A DNA stretch of 64,000 bases from a virus. The notes beneath the pieces were generated by a model, which did not search any database, was not told where the DNA came from, and was given only the letters and a program-made list of their open reading frames with translations. The position numbers and the translations under genes are program-made. The stretch is taken from the IMG/VR virus record IMGVR_UViG_3300025319_000005, positions 1 through 64,000 of that record. One strand, written 5' to 3'. Below are positions 9,519-16,945 of the stretch, piece after piece (position 1 is the first letter of the stretch; every line of letters begins with the position of its first letter).

Positions 9519-10001
9519 TTATGCTATTGATAATTTGCCATTCATTGTTTTTACTATTTGTTCCAACGGAGATTCTATTTTTTGAATTATAGTATTATTA
9601 ATTAAACTTTGAGATTTTATGTAATCATTCTTTTTATTTTGATAATATATTTTTTGCTTATTATTTAAAATTAATCTTTTTTCTTTAATTTTTTCTCTTT
9701 GTTGTTTTAATACTAATCCACAAACTCCTTTGTATAATAAATTTAATCCACTATTTAAACAATCAAATAATTTTATGTAATATGATTCAGCATCATCCAA
9801 TTTTTCTTTTTCGCAAATATGTATTATTTCAAAAATGTGGTTCTCGTATTTATATTTTTTTAAAGAGTTATATAGTTGCCTTTGACCTTTACAATTATAT
9901 AACTTATAAGCATTCCATCTTTTTTCTATATTTATAGATTTACCTATATAAATTTTTCCGTTTGGTGATGTTATTTTATAGATTCCACAAGTTTGTTTCA
10001 T
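9519..10001 (-). CDS. GIY-YIG endonuclease
   Basis: 160 aa. N-terminal GIY-YIG domain: CGIYKITSPNGKIYIGKS at residues 5-22, then R at 28 and an E near 71 that fit the catalytic pattern. The C-terminal half is Lys/Asn-rich, as in homing endonuclease DNA-binding tails. The start overlaps the stop of the integrase gene by four bases, so the two are probably translated together. A selfish homing role or a part in mobility of the adjacent cassette region is plausible. Confidence 0.85.
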   Translation of the reverse strand: MKQTCGIYKITSPNGKIYIGKSINIEKRWNAYKLYNCKGQRQLYNSLKKYKYENHIFEIIHICEKEKLDDAESYYIKLFDCLNSGLNLLYKGVCGLVLKQQREKIKEKRLILNNKQKIYYQNKKNDYIKSQSLINNTIIQKIESPLEQIVKTMNGKLSIA

Positions 10002-10855
10002 AAATGAATATTACTAATAGGAGACGCAATTTTACTTATTAAATTATGTGAAATATGAGTGTAAATTGAAGTTGTTTTTACAGAAGAATGACCTAACAAT
10101 TTTTGAATAAGATTTATATCGACACCATTTTCAACCATATGAGTAGCTGATGTGTGTCTCATTAAGTGAGTATAAACTCTTTTGTTATCTATCCCGGCTT
10201 TCTTTGCCAATTGTTTAATTACATTACCAACGCTGTGTTCGGAATATTGTTCAGCATTATTTTGTCCAGTTAAAACATAAACAAACTGGTCTTTTTTTAT
10301 ATTGTACTCTTTGCAATAGTCTTTTAATATTATAATCAATTGTTCATTTAATCCAACTTGACGGTCTTTATTTCCCTTTGCTTGAATTACATTTATAATC
10401 ATTCGGCTCCGGTCAATGTGTTCCCATTTTAAATTTAATAATTCTGAAACCCGGAGGGAACAAGAATAAAGTAGGGCAAGAATCACTTTATGCTTTTTGT
10501 TTTCGCAGGCGTCAAACATTCGTTGGATTTCATTTACAGATAAAACAATCGGCAGTTTTTTGTTTTTCCTTGGACGTTCTATGTATTTGAATTTTTCAAT
10601 TCCGACCCTTGCAATTTTTTCATAATAAATTTTAATAGCTGAATGGTATCCTGAATGTGTTGATGGTTCCTTAAACTGACCAAGAAACTCAATTATCATT
10701 GTGGTATTAATTCTGTCTGGGTGCGTTACCCCTTTCTTTTCAAAATAAGCAAGAAATCCAGTGAAGTTGCTACAATAGTTAGAAACTGAATTTGGCGAGT
10801 AATTTCGGAACTCCATATAATTTCGGAGCTTCTGTACTGGGTCTGAAATTTCCAT
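9998..10855 (-). CDS. tyrosine recombinase / integrase (XerD-like)
   Basis: 285 aa. N-terminal SAM-like core-binding domain (residues 5-85) and a C-terminal catalytic domain with the expected residues: R in CSLRVSELLNLKW, K in the beta-hairpin (AKGNKDRQV), HLMRHTSATHM, LGHSSVKTTSIYTH with the nucleophilic Tyr. Length and motifs are those of a simple XerC/D-type recombinase; the extra helix typical of integron integrases is not evident. It abuts a stretch of gene cassettes separated by attC-like palindromes (11-13.9 kb), which makes it the obvious candidate for moving them. Confidence 0.9.
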   Translation of the reverse strand: MEISDPVQKLRNYMEFRNYSPNSVSNYCSNFTGFLAYFEKKGVTHPDRINTTMIIEFLGQFKEPSTHSGYHSAIKIYYEKIARVGIEKFKYIERPRKNKKLPIVLSVNEIQRMFDACENKKHKVILALLYSCSLRVSELLNLKWEHIDRSRMIINVIQAKGNKDRQVGLNEQLIIILKDYCKEYNIKKDQFVYVLTGQNNAEQYSEHSVGNVIKQLAKKAGIDNKRVYTHLMRHTSATHMVENGVDINLIQKLLGHSSVKTTSIYTHISHNLISKIASPISNIHL

Positions 10856-10964
10856 GTCTAAATGTATTGATTTTATTAATACTTCAATAAGTGTGCCACA
10901 TATATAATGTTATGTTCAATTGTTTGTTGTTTAATTTTAAAAGCCACCGCACTCCTTTGTTTTT
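10856..10964. other. non-coding junction with inverted-repeat end
   Basis: Separates the methyltransferase stop from the integrase start. It holds one arm of the 26-bp inverted repeat (10917-10942) preceded by GTTATGTT, the same bases found at the border of the attC-like site at 12138 in the opposite orientation. Confidence 0.5.
10917..10942 (+). repeat. 26-bp inverted repeat, left arm
   Basis: CA(A/G)TTGTTTGTTGTTTAA continuing TTTTAAAA, present here on the plus strand and at 12088-12113 on the minus strand with a single mismatch. The two arms bracket the methyltransferase cassette. Confidence 0.7.
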
Positions 10965-11795
10965 TCAAAACAATAAAAGGTTTGGTTTGTACTCATTAAT
11001 TCTGTTTGTCGCTAATTCAAAATATTCCTGTTTCTTTTCCATAATAATATAATTCCGCTTTAAGTTTTTACACACAACTCCAACCGTTCCACTTCCGCCA
11101 AACGGGTCCAACACAACATCGTTTTCATTAGTAAATGTTTTCACAAAAAACTCAACCAACTTTTCGGGGAATACTGCACTATGTTCCATCTTTGAAGTAA
11201 ATTGGTTTGTTACATTATTTGCGTTAATAACATTTGAAGGTCGTGCAAATTCAATGTCCTTAAAATTATCTCTATCCACTACCATTCCGCTTCCGTTGGT
11301 TGGTGTTTTACAATTCTTTCTAAATGCCCTGCTTTTTGTTTCCTCACTTACAGTTGTTCCACAAGCAAGTGCATTAAATGTAATTTGGTTTGGATTGTCT
11401 TTTGTAAAATGATACACAGGCTCAAATCCGTTTTTCATTCTCCCTTTCGTTCCAGTTGGGAAAGCATTTTTTGTCCAACAATATTCTTCCACAAACATAA
11501 ATCCCGTTTCTCTTTTCAGTCGGCAAATCAAATCATAAACATACAGGCTTCGTTCTCCTTTATTGGTGTGTGGCTTTATATTTAAAAAGAAACTTCCAGT
11601 AGGTTTTAAAATCCTTTTTATCTCTGCTCCAATAGGTAAAAACCAATCAATATATTCATTCTCGTTTGTACCTTCGTATGTTGCCTTTCTGCGTTCAGCA
11701 TAAGGCGGTGATGTAAAAACCAAATCAATACTATTAGTATCAATGGTTTTCATCAATTCTAAACAATCTCCTAAATAAACTTTATTGCTTTCCAT
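10965..11795 (-). CDS. site-specific DNA methyltransferase (beta class)
   Basis: 276 aa. Catalytic motif IV TSPPY at residues 29-33 precedes the SAM-binding motif I DPFGGSGT near residue 233, the permuted order of beta-class N4-cytosine/N6-adenine methyltransferases. Full-length for the class. No cognate restriction gene is beside it, so it is an orphan modifier, as common in phages for protection against host restriction. Overlaps the small gene upstream by one base and shares its cassette. Confidence 0.9.
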   Translation of the reverse strand: MESNKVYLGDCLELMKTIDTNSIDLVFTSPPYAERRKATYEGTNENEYIDWFLPIGAEIKRILKPTGSFFLNIKPHTNKGERSLYVYDLICRLKRETGFMFVEEYCWTKNAFPTGTKGRMKNGFEPVYHFTKDNPNQITFNALACGTTVSEETKSRAFRKNCKTPTNGSGMVVDRDNFKDIEFARPSNVINANNVTNQFTSKMEHSAVFPEKLVEFFVKTFTNENDVVLDPFGGSGTVGVVCKNLKRNYIIMEKKQEYFELATNRINEYKPNLLLF

Positions 11796-12037
11796 TAATC
11801 AACCGATATTGAAAGTATGCCCTTTCTTCCGTGTTTCACAAGTTCTTCTCCATCTTCATAAGCAACGGATAAGTGATGATTTTCATCAAGTATTTCTTCC
11901 TTATCAAAATCAATTATTCCATCAGGCAATTCATAAATATCATCTTCTTTGATAATATCTAACTGTTCCTGAGTTAATGGTTCTTTCAATTCGTAACGAA
12001 CCTTTACTGTTTTTGTAACATCAATGTAATTTTTCAT
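11795..12037 (-). CDS. small acidic partner of methyltransferase
   Basis: 80 aa, acidic, unrecognised. Directly precedes the methyltransferase with a one-base overlap and lies inside the same inverted-repeat-bounded cassette. The two genes have probably moved as a pair. Confidence 0.7.
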   Translation of the reverse strand: MKNYIDVTKTVKVRYELKEPLTQEQLDIIKEDDIYELPDGIIDFDKEEILDENHHLSVAYEDGEELVKHGRKGILSISVD

Positions 12038-12087
12038 ATTATATTTATTTTATAGTTATTAATAAAAAGCCAACACACGCCACCTTT

Positions 12088-12113
12088 TTTTAAAATTAAA
12101 CAACAAACAACTG
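12088..12113 (-). repeat. 26-bp inverted repeat, right arm
   Basis: Partner of 10917-10942 in the opposite orientation, about 1.2 kb apart, bracketing the methyltransferase pair. Confidence 0.7.
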
Positions 12114-12137
12114 CCCCTCGCTCGAAAACCCTACGCA

Positions 12138-12222
12138 CCAACATAACACAGGCTACACGCAATAGCCCCACAAGCCCTCACACATCCAAAGCTACTGCAA
12201 GTGTAGCCCCGTCCGTTAGTTG
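12138..12222 (-). repeat. attC-like imperfect palindrome A
   Basis: On the minus strand CTAACGG...GGCTACAC opens and GTGTAGCC...GTGTTATG closes a long imperfect hairpin; the arms pair over GGCTACACxxGCAxTAGC with a few unpaired bases on one side. This asymmetry, with AAC at one end and GTT at the other, is the layout of integron attC sites. Local GC is clearly higher than the surroundings. Confidence 0.55.
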
Positions 12223-12288
12223 CTATTTGTTTTCTTAAAATTAAAAGGCTCACGCTCGCTTAATTTTTTGCAAAAATTTAAAAGGTTA

Positions 12289-12780
12289 CTAACCTCCACT
12301 CATTGGTGTTGTATCAACTGAATAAAATCTCGGATAAGGTGATGTGTTCAAATCTAGCATGAACTTTAAATCAACTAATTTGTCTGGCAAAGTGGAAGGT
12401 ATAATTAAATAAAATTTCCATTTATCTTCTTCATTTATACTTCCTCGTTGCAAAAATAACTCACGTAAATTCCCAATATTTATAAATTGTATTTCTGTAA
12501 TAATTAACTTTTGGTCAATTTCTATTTTAAATTTTGTTTTAAATTTTGTATTCTTTATGTTTTTTTGAACACATACAAATTCCAAATTTTGACAATCTGG
12601 CTGAGAAAGGTCTATAAATTCATTCTCAGCAACTACTTTATCTTCCCACCTTTTAGGACGATTAATGCACTCTATTGTGTAATAGTCGTTATCAGCACCT
12701 ATTATTCTTTTCAATTGTGCAATCGTTATAATTGGCTTCACAAAGTAATTATTTCCATCAATTTTTATTCTAATATCCAT
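12289..12780 (-). CDS. ubiquitin-like (multiubiquitin-type) protein ending in Gly-Gly
   Basis: 163 aa from MDIRIKIDG. The first half matches the pattern of bacterial multiubiquitin-type beta-grasp domains: I-x-I-DG-x-x-Y-x-V, then TIAQLKRIIG, then E-x-x-IDLSQP and a final hydrophobic strand. A second, more diverged domain follows from about residue 80 (FKIEIDQKLIITE ... NLRELFL). The protein ends TTPMSGG: a terminal di-glycine, as required for activation of ubiquitin-like modifiers. Two-domain proteins of this type act with E1, E2 and JAB partners in bacterial anti-phage operons, but no such partners are visible here. Lies in a cassette between attC-like sites A and B. Confidence 0.55.
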   Translation of the reverse strand: MDIRIKIDGNNYFVKPIITIAQLKRIIGADNDYYTIECINRPKRWEDKVVAENEFIDLSQPDCQNLEFVCVQKNIKNTKFKTKFKIEIDQKLIITEIQFINIGNLRELFLQRGSINEEDKWKFYLIIPSTLPDKLVDLKFMLDLNTSPYPRFYSVDTTPMSGG

Positions 12781-12952
12781 AGTATCTTTTCCATCCTTTA
12801 ATTTGTTTATAATTATCAATGTAGTGAAATCCGTTATCTCGTTTTTTCACTAACTGTTTTTTTTCGTTTCCATTTTCATAAATAGCTATAAACTCAAACC
12901 CTTCATCGTTCGGTAAATAACTAACTGGATAAAATTTGCTAACACACGCCAT
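12770..12952 (-). CDS. small cassette protein upstream of Ubl gene
   Basis: 60 aa, unrecognised; aromatic-rich (FHYIDNYKQIKGWKRYYGY). Its ATG lies in ATGGCGTGTGTTAGC, a sequence also found at the same place in the two neighbouring cassettes, so start and leader are part of the cassette border. Overlaps the Ubl gene start by 11 bases. Confidence 0.55.
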   Translation of the reverse strand: MACVSKFYPVSYLPNDEGFEFIAIYENGNEKKQLVKKRDNGFHYIDNYKQIKGWKRYYGY

Positions 12953-13003
12953 CTCTTTTTGTTTATTTATTTTTTACTGCCTCACGCTCGAAGGGCTTAC
13001 GCA

Positions 13004-13088
13004 CCAACCTAACACCATGTTGGTCGTAAGTTTGCAACGTACTAACCGCTTAGGCAAACCTACGCCAACATTTGTACGTTGTACGCAA
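13004..13088 (-). repeat. attC-like imperfect palindrome B
   Basis: Arms 13008-13034 and 13055-13081 pair over ATGTTGG-CGTA-GTTTG with unpaired bases on one arm. The outer box on the minus strand is GTTAGGT, an exact GTTRRRY. The 70 bp that follow (GGTGCGTA, CTTCGAGCG, GGCGTGTGTT) are shared with site A. Confidence 0.6.
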
Positions 13089-13134
13089 GGTTTAAAAATA
13101 AAGGATCACGCACTTCTTAAAGTTTTTCAAACTT

Positions 13135-13443
13135 TTAAGAGATTTTAATCCGTTTACGTTTTGTTTCCCAATCTTTCTCTCCAATTATTTTAGCCGATTT
13201 ATAAATTCGGTTTTCTTTGTCAGCGCAAACATACATTCTGCAATGTGGTTTATCCGAATAATGCCCCTTTACAGCCATCACAGGAAAGTATTGCGTTTCT
13301 TCCATTACAACAACGTGATACATATATTGTTTTCGTTTTCCAATCATAAAATGAAACACTTTTAATAAATCACCAATCAATATCTGTTTACCAGTTTGGT
13401 CGTAGTACGTATTATCTTTCAACTTTTCTAAATATTCTTTCAT
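13135..13443 (-). CDS. hypothetical cassette protein, 102 aa
   Basis: Basic C-terminus (WETKRKRIKIS). The segment GDLLKVFHFMIGKRKQYMYHVVV suggests a small all-beta fold. MKEYLEKL is chosen as start, avoiding overlap with the neighbour that stops at 13446. Second gene of the cassette between attC-like sites B and C. Family not recognised. Confidence 0.65.
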   Translation of the reverse strand: MKEYLEKLKDNTYYDQTGKQILIGDLLKVFHFMIGKRKQYMYHVVVMEETQYFPVMAVKGHYSDKPHCRMYVCADKENRIYKSAKIIGEKDWETKRKRIKIS

Positions 13444-13445
13444 AA

Positions 13446-13667
13446 TTAGTTCCATTTAAAAGGGTTTGTATAATCAATCTCTTTCCAAAAACCAACAACG
13501 CCAAACATCACAATACCTACTATTATTATCAAAACAATAGTAATGTAACTAAGTGGATTATATGGATTAAATCTTCTTGCTGTTGAATATCCTTTACCTA
13601 AGTGAGGTGTTCTTTTTTTATTTGATACTTCCTGTAGAATGAAAAGGAATTTTAATATATTTTTCAT
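13446..13667 (-). CDS. small membrane protein in cassette
   Basis: 73 aa from MKNILKF. One strong transmembrane helix (YITIVLIIIVGIVMFGVVGF) near residues 40-60. A longer frame from 13718 (MVACGGRK) would begin in the conserved cassette border and is less likely. Function unknown. Confidence 0.6.
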   Translation of the reverse strand: MKNILKFLFILQEVSNKKRTPHLGKGYSTARRFNPYNPLSYITIVLIIIVGIVMFGVVGFWKEIDYTNPFKWN

Positions 13668-13732
13668 AATTTGTTTTAAAATGTAAGTACTATGTTTTCT
13701 GCCTCCACACGCCACCATTTATTTTTAAACCC

Positions 13733-13822
13733 AGCGTACAACACCAAATAGGACGCAAGGCTACCTAACTGCTTACTATTCATTACGCTTATACGCCCTG
13801 TCGCCTATTTTTGTACGTTAAA
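13733..13822 (-). repeat. attC-like imperfect palindrome C
   Basis: Arms 13735-13760 and 13796-13821 pair as CGTACAA-AATAGG against CCTATTT-GGTGTTGTACG with extra unpaired bases on one arm. It starts 14 bp after the stop of the gene ending at 13836, as expected for a cassette recombination site. Confidence 0.6.
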
Positions 13823-13835
13823 AATCTCCAACTCA

Positions 13836-14009
13836 TTATTTATATGGTGTTTTCGCCAATACTCTTTTTATCATTTTAATACTTTTCATCACTTGCCTGT
13901 CTGCACAAGTTTGTCCTTCAACTTTTCTGCTTCCAAGAATATTGGCAACTATCCTCAAAGTATCTTCTATTTGTTCGGCTTCAAACTTGTGTATTATTAA
14001 TTCTTCCAT
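13836..14009 (-). CDS. hypothetical helical protein
   Basis: 57 aa from MEELIIHKFEAEQIEDTL, mostly helical, basic C-terminus. An upstream Met at 14057 would overlap the preceding gene by 40 bases. Its stop lies right beside attC-like site C, so it may be the first cassette of the series. Confidence 0.6.
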   Translation of the reverse strand: MEELIIHKFEAEQIEDTLRIVANILGSRKVEGQTCADRQVMKSIKMIKRVLAKTPYK

Positions 14010-14017
14010 TTTTTGTT

Positions 14018-14332
14018 TTAAATCAATCCAGCTTTCTTTTTTGTTGAATATAACCATGATTCAAAATTGTTTTCCGCATTTATATCACGCTTAATCAGAT
14101 ATTCAACATATTGCCTTTTGCTCATTGCTGTAGTTTCAATTTTTTGATCTTTATTTTTAAAGTAACCTTCAGTCAAATAATGAACTTCTTGACCCCATTT
14201 CGCATCAAATATAAATACTAATTTAGTATCTAAATAATTTCGTATTTCATCTGATAGCTTCCAGTCTTTACTAACTCTCGCTTCTTTTCTGTCCTCAATC
14301 AATTTATCAATATATTTACCTTCAAAGTCCAT
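14018..14332 (-). CDS. CysRS C-terminal-domain-like small protein
   Basis: 104 aa from MDFEGKYIDKL. IDKLIEDRKEARVSKDW followed by SDEIRNYL is the helix pattern near the C-terminus of cysteinyl-tRNA synthetases (x-R-x-x-AR-x-x-KDW-x-x-AD-x-IR). No catalytic domain is present, so it is a stand-alone relative, perhaps RNA binding; function is not implied. Confidence 0.55.
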   Translation of the reverse strand: MDFEGKYIDKLIEDRKEARVSKDWKLSDEIRNYLDTKLVFIFDAKWGQEVHYLTEGYFKNKDQKIETTAMSKRQYVEYLIKRDINAENNFESWLYSTKKKAGLI

Positions 14333-14648
14333 AGTTATATATTTTGTTAAGTTGAGCAGTATTATTGAAGTTTCTATGAACAACTCTCATGCAAACAAGA
14401 GGGAAATAATTAGTATTAATATTATACCCAGTATCTTTACCATCTTCAAAAATAATTTGACCGGTTTCAATTTCTCCATTTGTACCATACGCCATTCCGT
14501 CAGAATCAAAGCCAGCTGGATATATTTGTCCACTTTCATCGTATACGCCTTTAACTAAATCAACAAATCCGTTTTTATACAGGATTTTCCCATTTTCAGA
14601 TAATAATCTGACCAATTTTTTCTTACTGTTATCTATTTTCGTAGCCAT
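14322..14648 (-). CDS. hypothetical protein, 108 aa
   Basis: Basic N-terminus, then a Gly/Asp-rich beta-type body (YDESGQIYPAGFDSDGMAYGTNGEIETG). Unrecognised. Overlaps the following gene by about 10 bases; preceded by 70 bp of AT-rich leader without the conserved promoter. Confidence 0.65.
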   Translation of the reverse strand: MATKIDNSKKKLVRLLSENGKILYKNGFVDLVKGVYDESGQIYPAGFDSDGMAYGTNGEIETGQIIFEDGKDTGYNINTNYFPLVCMRVVHRNFNNTAQLNKIYNYGL

Positions 14649-14719
14649 AATGTTAATTTTTCACAAATGTAGAAAAAAAGTAGAAATTGTATATTTTTTC
14701 TTTAAAAAGTTATTAACAA

Positions 14720-14905
14720 TTATTCATCATCTTTAATTCCATCAAGTCTTTCTCCTGTATTATCCCAATATGGAGCCGTTGTAGAGTCATAAAAACCAAC
14801 ATATTCTGAATCTATACAATAATCCACTGTTTCAAGTAGAATTTTTTTCATTTGCTCAGTAGATAGTGTTTCAATCCATTTTTTTAATCTTTCTGTCCGA
14901 TTCAT
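14720..14905 (-). CDS. hypothetical acidic protein, 61 aa
   Basis: An N-terminal helix (TERLKKWIETLSTEQMKKILLE) and an acidic tail ending KDDE. Unknown. Part of the three-gene run starting at 15532. Confidence 0.65.
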   Translation of the reverse strand: MNRTERLKKWIETLSTEQMKKILLETVDYCIDSEYVGFYDSTTAPYWDNTGERLDGIKDDE

Positions 14906-14928
14906 TTTTATTGAGATTTGTTGATTAG

Positions 14929-15303
14929 TTAATGATTATAGCTAATTGTATTATAAGCTGCATCAATCGCAAGTCCTTGTTCAATCCAACCATTGACATC
15001 TATGTGTAAAAGTGTTAGAAAGTCAATTATTTCAGCATCTAATTGAATACTATCGAATAATGTACGCTTGATATTTTCTTTAGGCCAAAGTTTGTTTAGT
15101 TGCTCTATTTCGTTTCTGGATAAACTGTCAAATTTTCTCAATATTAACTTGACTAAACTTGGGTTATAGTTTATTTTATTGATGACAACCACATTTAGTT
15201 TAATATCAATACCTTCAATAATTGAAAAGTCTGAGTTACCTTTAATATGGCAGGAACATCCAATAAAGAACCTGAAATCAATTGCACTTAATGTGGTTTT
15301 CAT
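14929..15303 (-). CDS. hypothetical protein, 124 aa
   Basis: Mixed alpha/beta protein beginning MKTTLSAIDFRFFIGCSCHIKG, ending in an acidic helical part. No recognised domain. Four bases separate it from the zinc-finger gene upstream, so the two are co-transcribed. Confidence 0.65.
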   Translation of the reverse strand: MKTTLSAIDFRFFIGCSCHIKGNSDFSIIEGIDIKLNVVVINKINYNPSLVKLILRKFDSLSRNEIEQLNKLWPKENIKRTLFDSIQLDAEIIDFLTLLHIDVNGWIEQGLAIDAAYNTISYNH

Positions 15304-15307
15304 GTTG

Positions 15308-15532
15308 TTAAGCGTCTAATTCTTTGTCGGCTTGCAGTAATTTTTCTCCAAGAGCATTTTTATCAAGCTCCTTATTTAATAATGAAGTAGTGTAACATCC
15401 AGCAGAACAATATCCTAGATAAAAAGGATTTCCTTCTCCATATACACGTTTTACTTCTTTTGCTGAGTGGATTTTACCACATTCTTGGTTTTTACATACT
15501 CTTTTGTCTGTATCTACTTTTGATTTTTTCAT
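15308..15532 (-). CDS. small zinc-finger protein
   Basis: 74 aa. CKNQEC and CSAGC place four cysteines for a treble-clef-like knuckle; the C-terminus is a Lys/Asp/Glu-rich helix. First gene after the conserved promoter at 15559. Confidence 0.7.
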   Translation of the reverse strand: MKKSKVDTDKRVCKNQECGKIHSAKEVKRVYGEGNPFYLGYCSAGCYTTSLLNKELDKNALGEKLLQADKELDA

Positions 15533-15558
15533 GATGTTTTAATTTAATGTTAAATTTC

Positions 15559-15598
15559 TTATAATGCACTATACAAGAAAAAAATGAGAGGTGTTACA
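15559..15598 (-). promoter_or_regulatory. conserved phage promoter
   Basis: 40-bp element with GTATAGTGCATTATAA as -10 block; drives 15532-14720. Confidence 0.85.
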
Positions 15599-15605
15599 GA
15601 TTCAA

Positions 15606-16343
15606 TTATCTTTTATTAATTACAATAATCACAGATGCAGTGTTTGTTCCACTTTCTTTAAATTCACCTTCAGGCAATTCCTGTATTTCTGCACCAACTT
15701 CTTTGAGCCAATTTTGAAAGTTCACTTCTTTTTTGTTGGTTGATATTTGAGAATGCTTTGAAGCAATGGTTACAATTCTTCCTTCATCTTTCAGACAATC
15801 CCACATTTTCATAATGTGCTGGATATCTTGGTTTTTATTAAAAGGAGGATTTGCAACTATTTTATCGAATTTTTTCGTGCAAGTTAAAAAATCTTCACCA
15901 AGCAAAACAAAATTTTTTATATCTTTTAGAACTTTTTGATTTTCAGGCATTAATTCATAGCCAAAAACTTTTTTATCGTTACCCAAAACTCTTTGAATGG
16001 ATTTTATTATTGAACCTTGTCCGGCTTCTGGTTCGCAAATTTCATCATCTTTTTGTACATCTGCCAATTCAACAAGTCTATCAGCCAAACCTGCAGGTGT
16101 AGCATAAAATTGAAACTCTTTTTTGATATTGCGTTTTTCTCCGCCGGCAATTTGAGTAAGTAACTCAGTTGGGTCTTCGTTGAAGGTGAAACCCTGGATT
16201 TTGCCACCTGTCCATTTTCCTCCAATCAAATTAAGTGATTTCGCAACATCCATGTAAAGTTTGCGGTCAAGAGGAATAGAAGGTAGTTTTACTATTTTTC
16301 CTTCTACTGTGCACTTTTGTAGTATTTGTTCTTTCGTTTCCAT
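15606..16343 (-). CDS. SAM-dependent DNA methyltransferase (N6-adenine type)
   Basis: 245 aa. SAM-binding motif CEPEAGQGSII near residue 103 and catalytic NPPF near 165, the gamma/alpha order of N6-adenine methyltransferases. The N-terminal 80 residues are a separate domain (LYMDVAKSLNLIGGKWTG) of a kind seen in phage adenine methyltransferases. No endonuclease nearby, so probably protective. Single-gene unit under the promoter at 16361. Confidence 0.8.
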   Translation of the reverse strand: METKEQILQKCTVEGKIVKLPSIPLDRKLYMDVAKSLNLIGGKWTGGKIQGFTFNEDPTELLTQIAGGEKRNIKKEFQFYATPAGLADRLVELADVQKDDEICEPEAGQGSIIKSIQRVLGNDKKVFGYELMPENQKVLKDIKNFVLLGEDFLTCTKKFDKIVANPPFNKNQDIQHIMKMWDCLKDEGRIVTIASKHSQISTNKKEVNFQNWLKEVGAEIQELPEGEFKESGTNTASVIIVINKR

Positions 16344-16360
16344 TATATATTTTGTTTTGG

Positions 16361-16400
16361 TTATAATGTACTATACAAAAAATAATTGAGAGGTGTTACA
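16361..16400 (-). promoter_or_regulatory. conserved phage promoter
   Basis: 40-bp element upstream of the methyltransferase at 16343. Confidence 0.85.
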
Positions 16401-16412
16401 AGTAAAGCGTAA

Positions 16413-16700
16413 TTAAATTTTTGAAAAATATTTTTTAGCTTTCGTTTTCACAATTCGCCTTTTCACAATCTTACTTTTCAATCGTATTGAAGTAACTGGC
16501 GGGAATAAATTTGTCGGTCTGCATTTAAACACTCGGCACAAATTATATAAGTAAATTGTTTGCCAGTTTTGCCTTCCCGCTTCCATATTTACATAATTCA
16601 CCCTTGTTACACCAAGCATATCCGCAATATTCTCTTGTGAGTATTTCAGTTGCTTGCGGTATTTTTTCGCTCTTATTCCTATTTCTTTATTTATGTTCAT
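16413..16700 (-). CDS. XRE-family helix-turn-helix regulator
   Basis: 95 aa. Cro/C1-type HTH at residues 10-65 (AKKYRKQLKYSQENIADMLGVTR, then MEAGRQNW). The tail is strongly basic and has no dimerisation domain. No conserved phage promoter precedes it, so it may belong to the host-sigma-dependent early set. Targets unknown; the palindromes at 3046 are one candidate. Confidence 0.85.
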   Translation of the reverse strand: MNINKEIGIRAKKYRKQLKYSQENIADMLGVTRVNYVNMEAGRQNWQTIYLYNLCRVFKCRPTNLFPPVTSIRLKSKIVKRRIVKTKAKKYFSKI

Positions 16701-16783
16701 CGTAAAATATTTTTCAAAAACTTAACTGACATTTAACATAGTATTGTAGACTGTACGAAAAGCACAGCTACAATACTTTTTCG

Positions 16784-16945
16784 TTATTTTTTTAATTTAC
16801 AAGACATTTTTTCCTTCAACACTACAGCAAGTCTATTTCTATCATCATCGTCCGGAACTAATCCATTCCATAATTTAAGTTCATTACAAGTTTTTCTTAC
16901 TGCTTCGTTCCAGATTTCTTTTTCTTTTTTAGTTAAAATTTTCAT
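16784..16945 (-). CDS. small charged protein, 53 aa
   Basis: MKILTKKEKEIWNEAVRKT, then a DDDD acid patch and a basic C-terminus. Its ATG overlaps the stop of the upstream gene by ATGA, good evidence that it is real. Function unknown. Confidence 0.65.
   Translation of the reverse strand: MKILTKKEKEIWNEAVRKTCNELKLWNGLVPDDDDRNRLAVVLKEKMSCKLKK

Follow-up and report, generated by a model that had tools for sequence, protein, structure and literature searches.

Integrons are known as bacterial platforms, and phages have mainly been reported to carry fragments of them or copies of IntI. The locus described here lies within the first 64 kb (the window) of the 212,632-base IMG/VR virus record IMGVR_UViG_3300025319_000005. 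It consists of a tyrosine recombinase gene and, upstream of it on the minus strand, short genes in three groups with hairpins between them. The window has a GC content of 30%, the record encodes a phage-type sigma factor, a DNA helicase and a ligase, and it probably represents a large phage of Bacteroidota bacteria. An earlier note, made from the sequence alone, had read the locus as an integron-like cassette array in a phage. The analysis supports this reading and refines it, with attC placed 5' of the gene and attI between the last cassette and the recombinase. We put the probability of a phage-borne integron-like cassette platform at close to nine in ten. This rests on features that the sequences show, namely the architecture, a conserved attI-like motif, cassette-specific end complementarity, stem covariation, and base-precise gain, loss and shuffling of cassettes in relatives.

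The locus shares several features with the canonical integrons of R388 (class 1) and Shewanella phage M16-3: attI lies at the 5' end of the integrase gene, each cassette has its attC at the integrase-distal end, the crossover is AAC/GTT, R boxes are matched within the cassette, and the integrase is transcribed away from the array. It differs from them in that the I2 insertion is missing from the phage recombinase, whose score falls far short of the IntI cut-off. It also differs in its open reading frames (ORFs), which are directed toward the integrase and have attC on their 5' side, in the R box consensus GTTANNNGYN(G/A) and in the asymmetry of the spacers. A covariance model (R1), trained on 18 sites from related phages only and with the window sites excluded, left the R388 attC sites unmatched and reached M16-3 only at an E value of 0.19.

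Polaribacter phage P12002L has been reported as an integrase-less phage CALIN (a cluster of attC sites without an integrase) in which one attC works with IntI1. Qi et al. report recombination of the P12002L_attC2 bottom strand with attI1 and read the odd orientations as mosaicism, not invoking a dedicated phage recombinase family (PMC9892861). Three P12002L sites match model R1 (35.1, 34.8 and 23.8 bits), the genes lie the same way relative to attC, and there are methyltransferase cassettes. A resident integrase and attI are not annotated there, whereas the window has both a recombinase and an attI-like site.

Among bacterial arrays, those of recombinase-associated acquired interbacterial defence (rAID) in Bacteroidales have a tyrosine recombinase upstream of co-oriented short genes (PMC12247911). 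The rAID recombinase is closer to the phage clade than XerC/D in our tree, but the rAID array lies 3' of the recombinase and carries immunity genes, whereas the phage array lies upstream and its nameable cargo is mainly DNA modification. AAC-stem-GTT sites were not found by our scanner in the rAID plasmids of Parabacteroides and Bacteroides. In the reverse integrons of Treponema and others, the integrase gene itself is turned round (PMC6557892). As in the phage, the integrase and cassette genes there share one direction of transcription; in the phage, however, it is the ORFs that are inverted, within the cassettes, and the integrase keeps its canonical orientation with respect to attI and attC. 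A Chryseobacterium plasmid array (NZ_CP041688, L120) resembles the phage arrays in the family of its attC sites (41.9 and 29 bits) and in its cassette-matched ends, but is located 3' of a 347-aa recombinase, with canonical ORFs and attC at the 3' end. A published account of the phage system was not found in a search that covered neither preprints nor most subscription journals.

attC-like hairpins and cassettes in the window

The earlier note had placed three imperfect hairpins, rich in GC and with unpaired bases on one arm, at 12138-12222, 13004-13088 and 13733-13822. A scanner requiring only AAC, an imperfect stem and GTT independently returned exactly three sites, at these locations, on the minus strand between 9000 and 16000, where the shuffle expectation is 0-0.2. 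Among 500 shuffles of 10856-13900, three sites were obtained in none and two sites in one. On either strand, the single-stranded DNA of sites 1 to 3 gives better folds than shuffled sequence does (z -2.4 to -3.2). Their GC contents are 0.55, 0.44 and 0.42, compared with 0.30 for the window, and sites 2 and 3 each have a single extrahelical base on one arm. The covariance-model search for attC that the note had proposed found its best match in the window at site 1 (Table 1).

A scan of the whole window added a fourth site and two weak isolated matches that were left uncounted. The edge of site 4 matches that of site 3 at only 5/8 positions, and because of this weaker match the site is rated probable, not certain; it would bound a 3-kb cassette (13818-16783) with about eight genes. 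Outside the window, three weak partial attC-model matches occur in the record (G000; 66858, 75363 and 83337), spaced by about 8 kb. An Rfam search of the window gave zero matches.

The ends of cassette C, GTTATGTT and AACATAAC, are complementary, and a 26-nt inverted repeat is formed by 10917-10942 and 12088-12113. The rule that R' matches R'' within a cassette is clearly kept in two of the three window cassettes, by GTTATGTT/AACATAAC and GTTGTACGC/GCGTACAAC, and partly in cassette B. The recurring sequences mentioned in the earlier note are real, with a GGTGGCGTGTG-like sequence in all three cassettes and GGTGCGTA-N5-TTCGAGCG in two. A GC-rich module, GGTGCGTAGGGTTTTCGAGCGAGGGGCAG, is found in window cassettes B and C and in unrelated cassettes of loci L023, L040 and L044, 8 nt inward of the cassette start; in cassette C, it splits a terminal inverted repeat that would otherwise be long. 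When 84,980 genomes were searched for the leader pattern GTTGGTGCGTA-N5-TTCGAGCG, two matches were obtained, about the chance level, and the search is therefore uninformative on hosts. In leader scans of viral contigs, L023 and L040 were the only true relatives.

Conserved layout and cassette exchange in relatives

A profile scan of IMG/VR yielded 64 loci, of which 58 were scored, some being duplicates. In these 58 loci, 129 attC-like sites were detected in 208 kb upstream of the recombinase gene and 14 in 300 kb downstream, i.e., 0.62 versus 0.047 per kb, a 13-fold difference. The same layout was found across 39 distinct viral loci with relatives of the recombinase. The upstream bias is borne out by the 105 unique sites. 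These sites have the R''-L''...L'-R' hairpin of attC with AAC/GTT borders, which is also supported by covariation, and the window sites fold likewise. Site length peaks at 122-127 nt, with spacers of 4-6 nt after AAC and 1-3 nt before GTT in the gene direction. Terminase, head protease, virion and DnaB-like genes adjoin several arrays, which supports the phage nature of the relatives. One array (L128) comes from an isolate genome (IMG 2511231122), in which it lies on a prophage-like contig next to terminase and head protease genes.

Of about 38 distinct phages, nearly all have the motif TAAC(T/A)AYTATATGTA directly after the last cassette, about 60 nt ahead of the start of the recombinase gene. 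Between loci L079 and L084, identity is 99.98% across a 6,856-bp stretch that runs from this border through the recombinase and beyond, and the homology stops abruptly at the border. These results place a putative attI at the border between the array and the integrase gene.

The start of a cassette matched its own end at 5.28 of 8 positions; mismatched pairs gave 2.87, and the opposite edges of a single hairpin gave 2.86. A 7/8 match was found in 32 of 67 cassettes, compared with 0.3% in controls. That the start matches its own end and not the other hairpin edge is expected if these are integron cassettes. A mismatch recurs at position 11, with G at the cassette start and A in the reverse complement of the end. 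In a 40-site alignment, stem pairing was 60%, compared with a mean of 34.5% and a maximum of 41.6% for shuffled arms; the R edges of one hairpin showed no covariation (37.5% versus 36.9%).

Loci L080 and L082, which are closely related and come from different metagenomes, have four cassettes in common that are 100% identical over their exact lengths (334, 306, 281 and 326). Their order is permuted: c20-c1-c2-c3-c6-c0 in L080 and c67-c68-c69-c3-c21-c22-c23-c0-c2-c1-c4-c5 in L082. The same cassette is followed by attI in one relative and by the next hairpin in another, which shows that each hairpin is the 5' end piece of the gene after it. The claim that the hairpins lie just past gene stops thus stood in part: each follows the stop of one gene, but the breakpoints in relatives assign it to the next gene.

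Whole-cassette differences were also observed in cultured Polaribacter phage Freya. Its ten deposited isolates fall into seven length classes (43,978-48,920 bases), of which one isolate each was compared, as assemblies and not reads. Each length class compared differs by whole cassettes with AAC/GTT junctions. Freya_1, 2, 5 and 9 equal Freya_10 up to AAC and then resume at the same attI-side sequence, Freya_8 is without exactly one internal 902-bp cassette, and a 472-bp cassette of Freya_6 is missing from Freya_10. Model R1, which was built without Freya, gave one match per Freya array (21.2 bits). The isolation paper gives the size range and the integrase and does not mention an integron or insertions (PMC8776804). 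The attC-like site of the Freya_6 472-bp cassette has an apparent loop of nearly 300 nt containing an ORF. In addition, 43 nt at the L'-R' end of an attC-like site (L151 2539-2581) are identical in Polaribacter phages Leef_1 and Freya, which belong to different families.

As natural sequences, the L080/L082 pair and the Freya isolates show that cassettes are excised, inserted and shuffled at the GTT box, with the cut expected between G and TT. According to the earlier note, a lack of attC matches together with an identical cassette order in all relatives would have counted against the array; the model does match, and the orders vary. The hairpins are intergenic and GC-rich in an AT-rich genome, as terminators or repetitive extragenic palindrome (REP)-like repeats in an ordinary variable accessory region would be. 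This explanation is scarcely credible in view of the AAC/GTT borders, the cassette-specific ends, the conserved attI and the exchange at exact borders; the exact cassette borders contradict both terminators and REP elements.

Table 1. Features of the array region, in window coordinates
Feature	Position	Strand	Evidence and remarks
Tyrosine recombinase, Xer-like, putative array integrase	9998..10855	-	285 aa; Pfam Phage_integrase 4.9e-39
attI-like site, TGCCACATATATAAT/GTTA (slash, border); minus strand reads TAACATTATATATGTG	10890..10912	+	conserved motif, homology breakpoint in relatives
Cassette C, integrase-proximal, 1306 bp: 80-aa gene and N6/N4 DNA methyltransferase; attC 1 integrase-distal	10910..12215	-	complementary ends, 26-nt inverted repeat
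DNA methyltransferase, 276 aa, cassette C	10965..11795	-	Pfam N6_N4_Mtase 4.5e-44
80-aa gene, cassette C	11795..12037	-	ORF; no Pfam match
attC-like site 1	12145..12217	+	scanner 28; covariance model 24.0 bits, E 6e-4; fold z -2.9/-3.2
Cassette B, 863 bp: 60-aa and 176-aa genes, attC 2	12216..13078	-	bounded by sites 1 and 2
attC-like site 2, extrahelical T on L''	13011..13080	+	scanner 35; fold z -3.0
Cassette A, 739 bp: ~73-aa and 106-aa genes, attC 3	13079..13817	-	inverted ends 13078-13102 / 13718-13742, 25 nt, 92%
attC-like site 3, extrahelical A on L''	13740..13819	+	scanner 25; covariance model 13.9 bits, E 0.3; fold z -2.4/-2.9
Probable attC-like site 4, AGTATTGTAG[A]CTG ... CAGCTACAATACT	16735..16785	+	scanner 29; covariance model 20.3 bits, E 0.02 (212-kb record)

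Around the array, a 62-nt repeat, TTATAATGTACTATACAAGAAAAAATTGAGAGGTGTTACAA, occurs in five copies upstream of minus-strand genes (window 8627, 9461, 15559, 16361 and 17900) and is probably a phage promoter or regulatory element.

The recombinase and its possible mode of action

The recombinase matched NF040815 (XerA/'integron integrase') with 195 bits (cut-off, 220) and TIGR02249 with 166 bits in two pieces (cut-off, 265); in its own record, model positions 180-235 are skipped. The six catalytic residues R135, K160, H230, R233, H256 and Y265 are invariant in 20 relatives. An alignment with the integrases of R388 (IntI1) and Shewanella phage M16-3 (IntI) shows that the recombinase is without the ALERKYP stretch. 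In the AlphaFold 2 model (pLDDT 84.8), no helix is seen from residue 183 to residue 206, and its nearest folds are XerA (Z 22.1) and IntI4 (Z 20.7). The recombinase is therefore without the IntI-specific I2 helix and is not an IntI. The analysis agrees with the earlier note, which had described a neighboring tyrosine recombinase without this helix and cassette genes facing it. A XerC/XerD orthologue was rejected, as TIGR02224/TIGR02225 gave 166/180 bits against cut-offs of 335/330 and the tree splits the recombinase from XerC/D. In the tree, the 39 phage recombinases form one clade (96/99), with the rAID and Chryseobacterium plasmid recombinases on the side of the phage clade and XerC/D and IntI on the other side. 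The closest bacterial kin are the Bacteroidota rAID and plasmid arrays. A GIY-YIG endonuclease gene (9519-10001) is located immediately downstream of the recombinase gene.

In the proposed mechanism, the recombinase would recombine the attI-like site at its own 5' side with the attC-like hairpins. A cassette begins with GTT on its attI-facing side, contains one or two genes and ends with the following hairpin and the GTT of that hairpin; cassettes would be inserted, excised and reordered at AAC/GTT. The order from attI is canonical (attI, cassette, attC, cassette, attC), and attC lies in the 5' leader of the cassette ORFs, with some start codons in the attC loop.

We infer that the neighboring recombinase catalyzes cassette exchange. 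It might instead only integrate the phage, the array being moved by a host integron integrase, host XerCD or homologous recombination, as in integrase-less CALINs. P12002L would fit, having sites of the same family, no annotated integrase and one attC recombined by IntI1 (PMC9892861), but in the relatives the sites cluster directly upstream, not downstream, of this recombinase family, and the recombinase, its array and the attI motif stay associated across 39 divergent loci. The AAC joints are exact and lack homology at their flanks, which also speaks against homologous recombination, and an outside mover is improbable.

The polarity, the covariation and the extrahelical bases make it fairly likely that attC is used as a folded single strand. 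The same recombinase could act on double-stranded sites in the Xer/dif manner, the hairpins being paired core sites. Such action would suit an Xer-like enzyme without I2 whose best fold is XerA, and an attI that is a short, AT-rich double-strand site. It would leave aside that the L''/L' stems are maintained by covariation across diverged sites, that the polarity is constant (asymmetric spacers, G/A mismatch at position 11) and accompanied by extrahelical bases, and that the two edges of one hairpin are unmatched. The bottom strand of P12002L_attC2, which may be one of the three P12002L sites matched by R1, is moreover reported to recombine with attI1 (PMC9892861). Double-strand action is thus rather unlikely.

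Several points weigh against an integron-like platform in the window. The I2 helix is held to be necessary for single-stranded attC recombination, which is proposed to have arisen by acquiring I2, and intermediates are noted as lacking (PMC7790495); the recombinase is without this helix. Model R1 matched site 3 weakly and site 2 not at all in the window. A close relative of the window phage with a different array was not found. The Freya integrase is 29% identical to the window recombinase, and a tree including the Freya and Leef integrases leaves both unplaced. Freya therefore shows that the design is active, not that the window copy is.

Cassette orientation, cargo and significance

The dominant ORF faced the recombinase in 99 of 104 cassettes (95%), and 36 ORFs begin within the hairpin. 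The canonical orientation, with ORFs directed away from attI and attC at the 3' end, is therefore not that of this system. Because the ORFs are flipped in the cassettes, they are read toward the recombinase, codirectionally with the surrounding phage genes. The locus is thus integron-like in its working and is not a member of the IntI integrons, from which both the recombinase and the gene orientation set it apart.

When 93 cassette ORFs were scanned against Pfam, the majority were without a family. Among those that could be named were five C5-cytosine methylases, four N6/N4 methylases and two PAPS reductases, and one each of MT-A70, EcoRI methylase, Mom and a TET-associated glycosyltransferase. 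DNA modification thus dominates among the predicted functions, and the advantage of the system may be the swapping of DNA-modification and other accessory genes. The 73-aa protein encoded in cassette A has a homologue in the 636-kb phage LR756504 (L041 6011-6235; 70% DNA identity), where its gene is part of an ordinary operon without hairpins, indicating that the 73-aa gene is a phage gene in a cassette; it is not proof of a shared array.

A further proposal, to which we give slightly less than even credence, is that these loci form a Bacteroidota-phage integron lineage apart from IntI, in which a Xer-like recombinase without I2 acts on folded single-stranded attC hairpins. If true, such a separate lineage would mean that single-strand cassette recombination either originated a second time or survives here in a stage that predates I2, and viruses would use an exchangeable bank of DNA-modification and anti-defence genes in inverted orientation. 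A platform with an I2-less recombinase makes the published claim on the I2 helix (PMC7790495) directly testable, and culturable Freya, whose isolates differ by entire cassettes, offers a system for the bench. Judging from the cargo, phages seem to trade methyltransferases, Mom, glycosyltransferase and the like in this way, which may be a route to altered restriction resistance. Viruses thus seem to run integrons of their own kind, and the findings point to a phage version that is widespread and resident and has a recombinase clade, an attI, an attC type and a gene orientation of its own.
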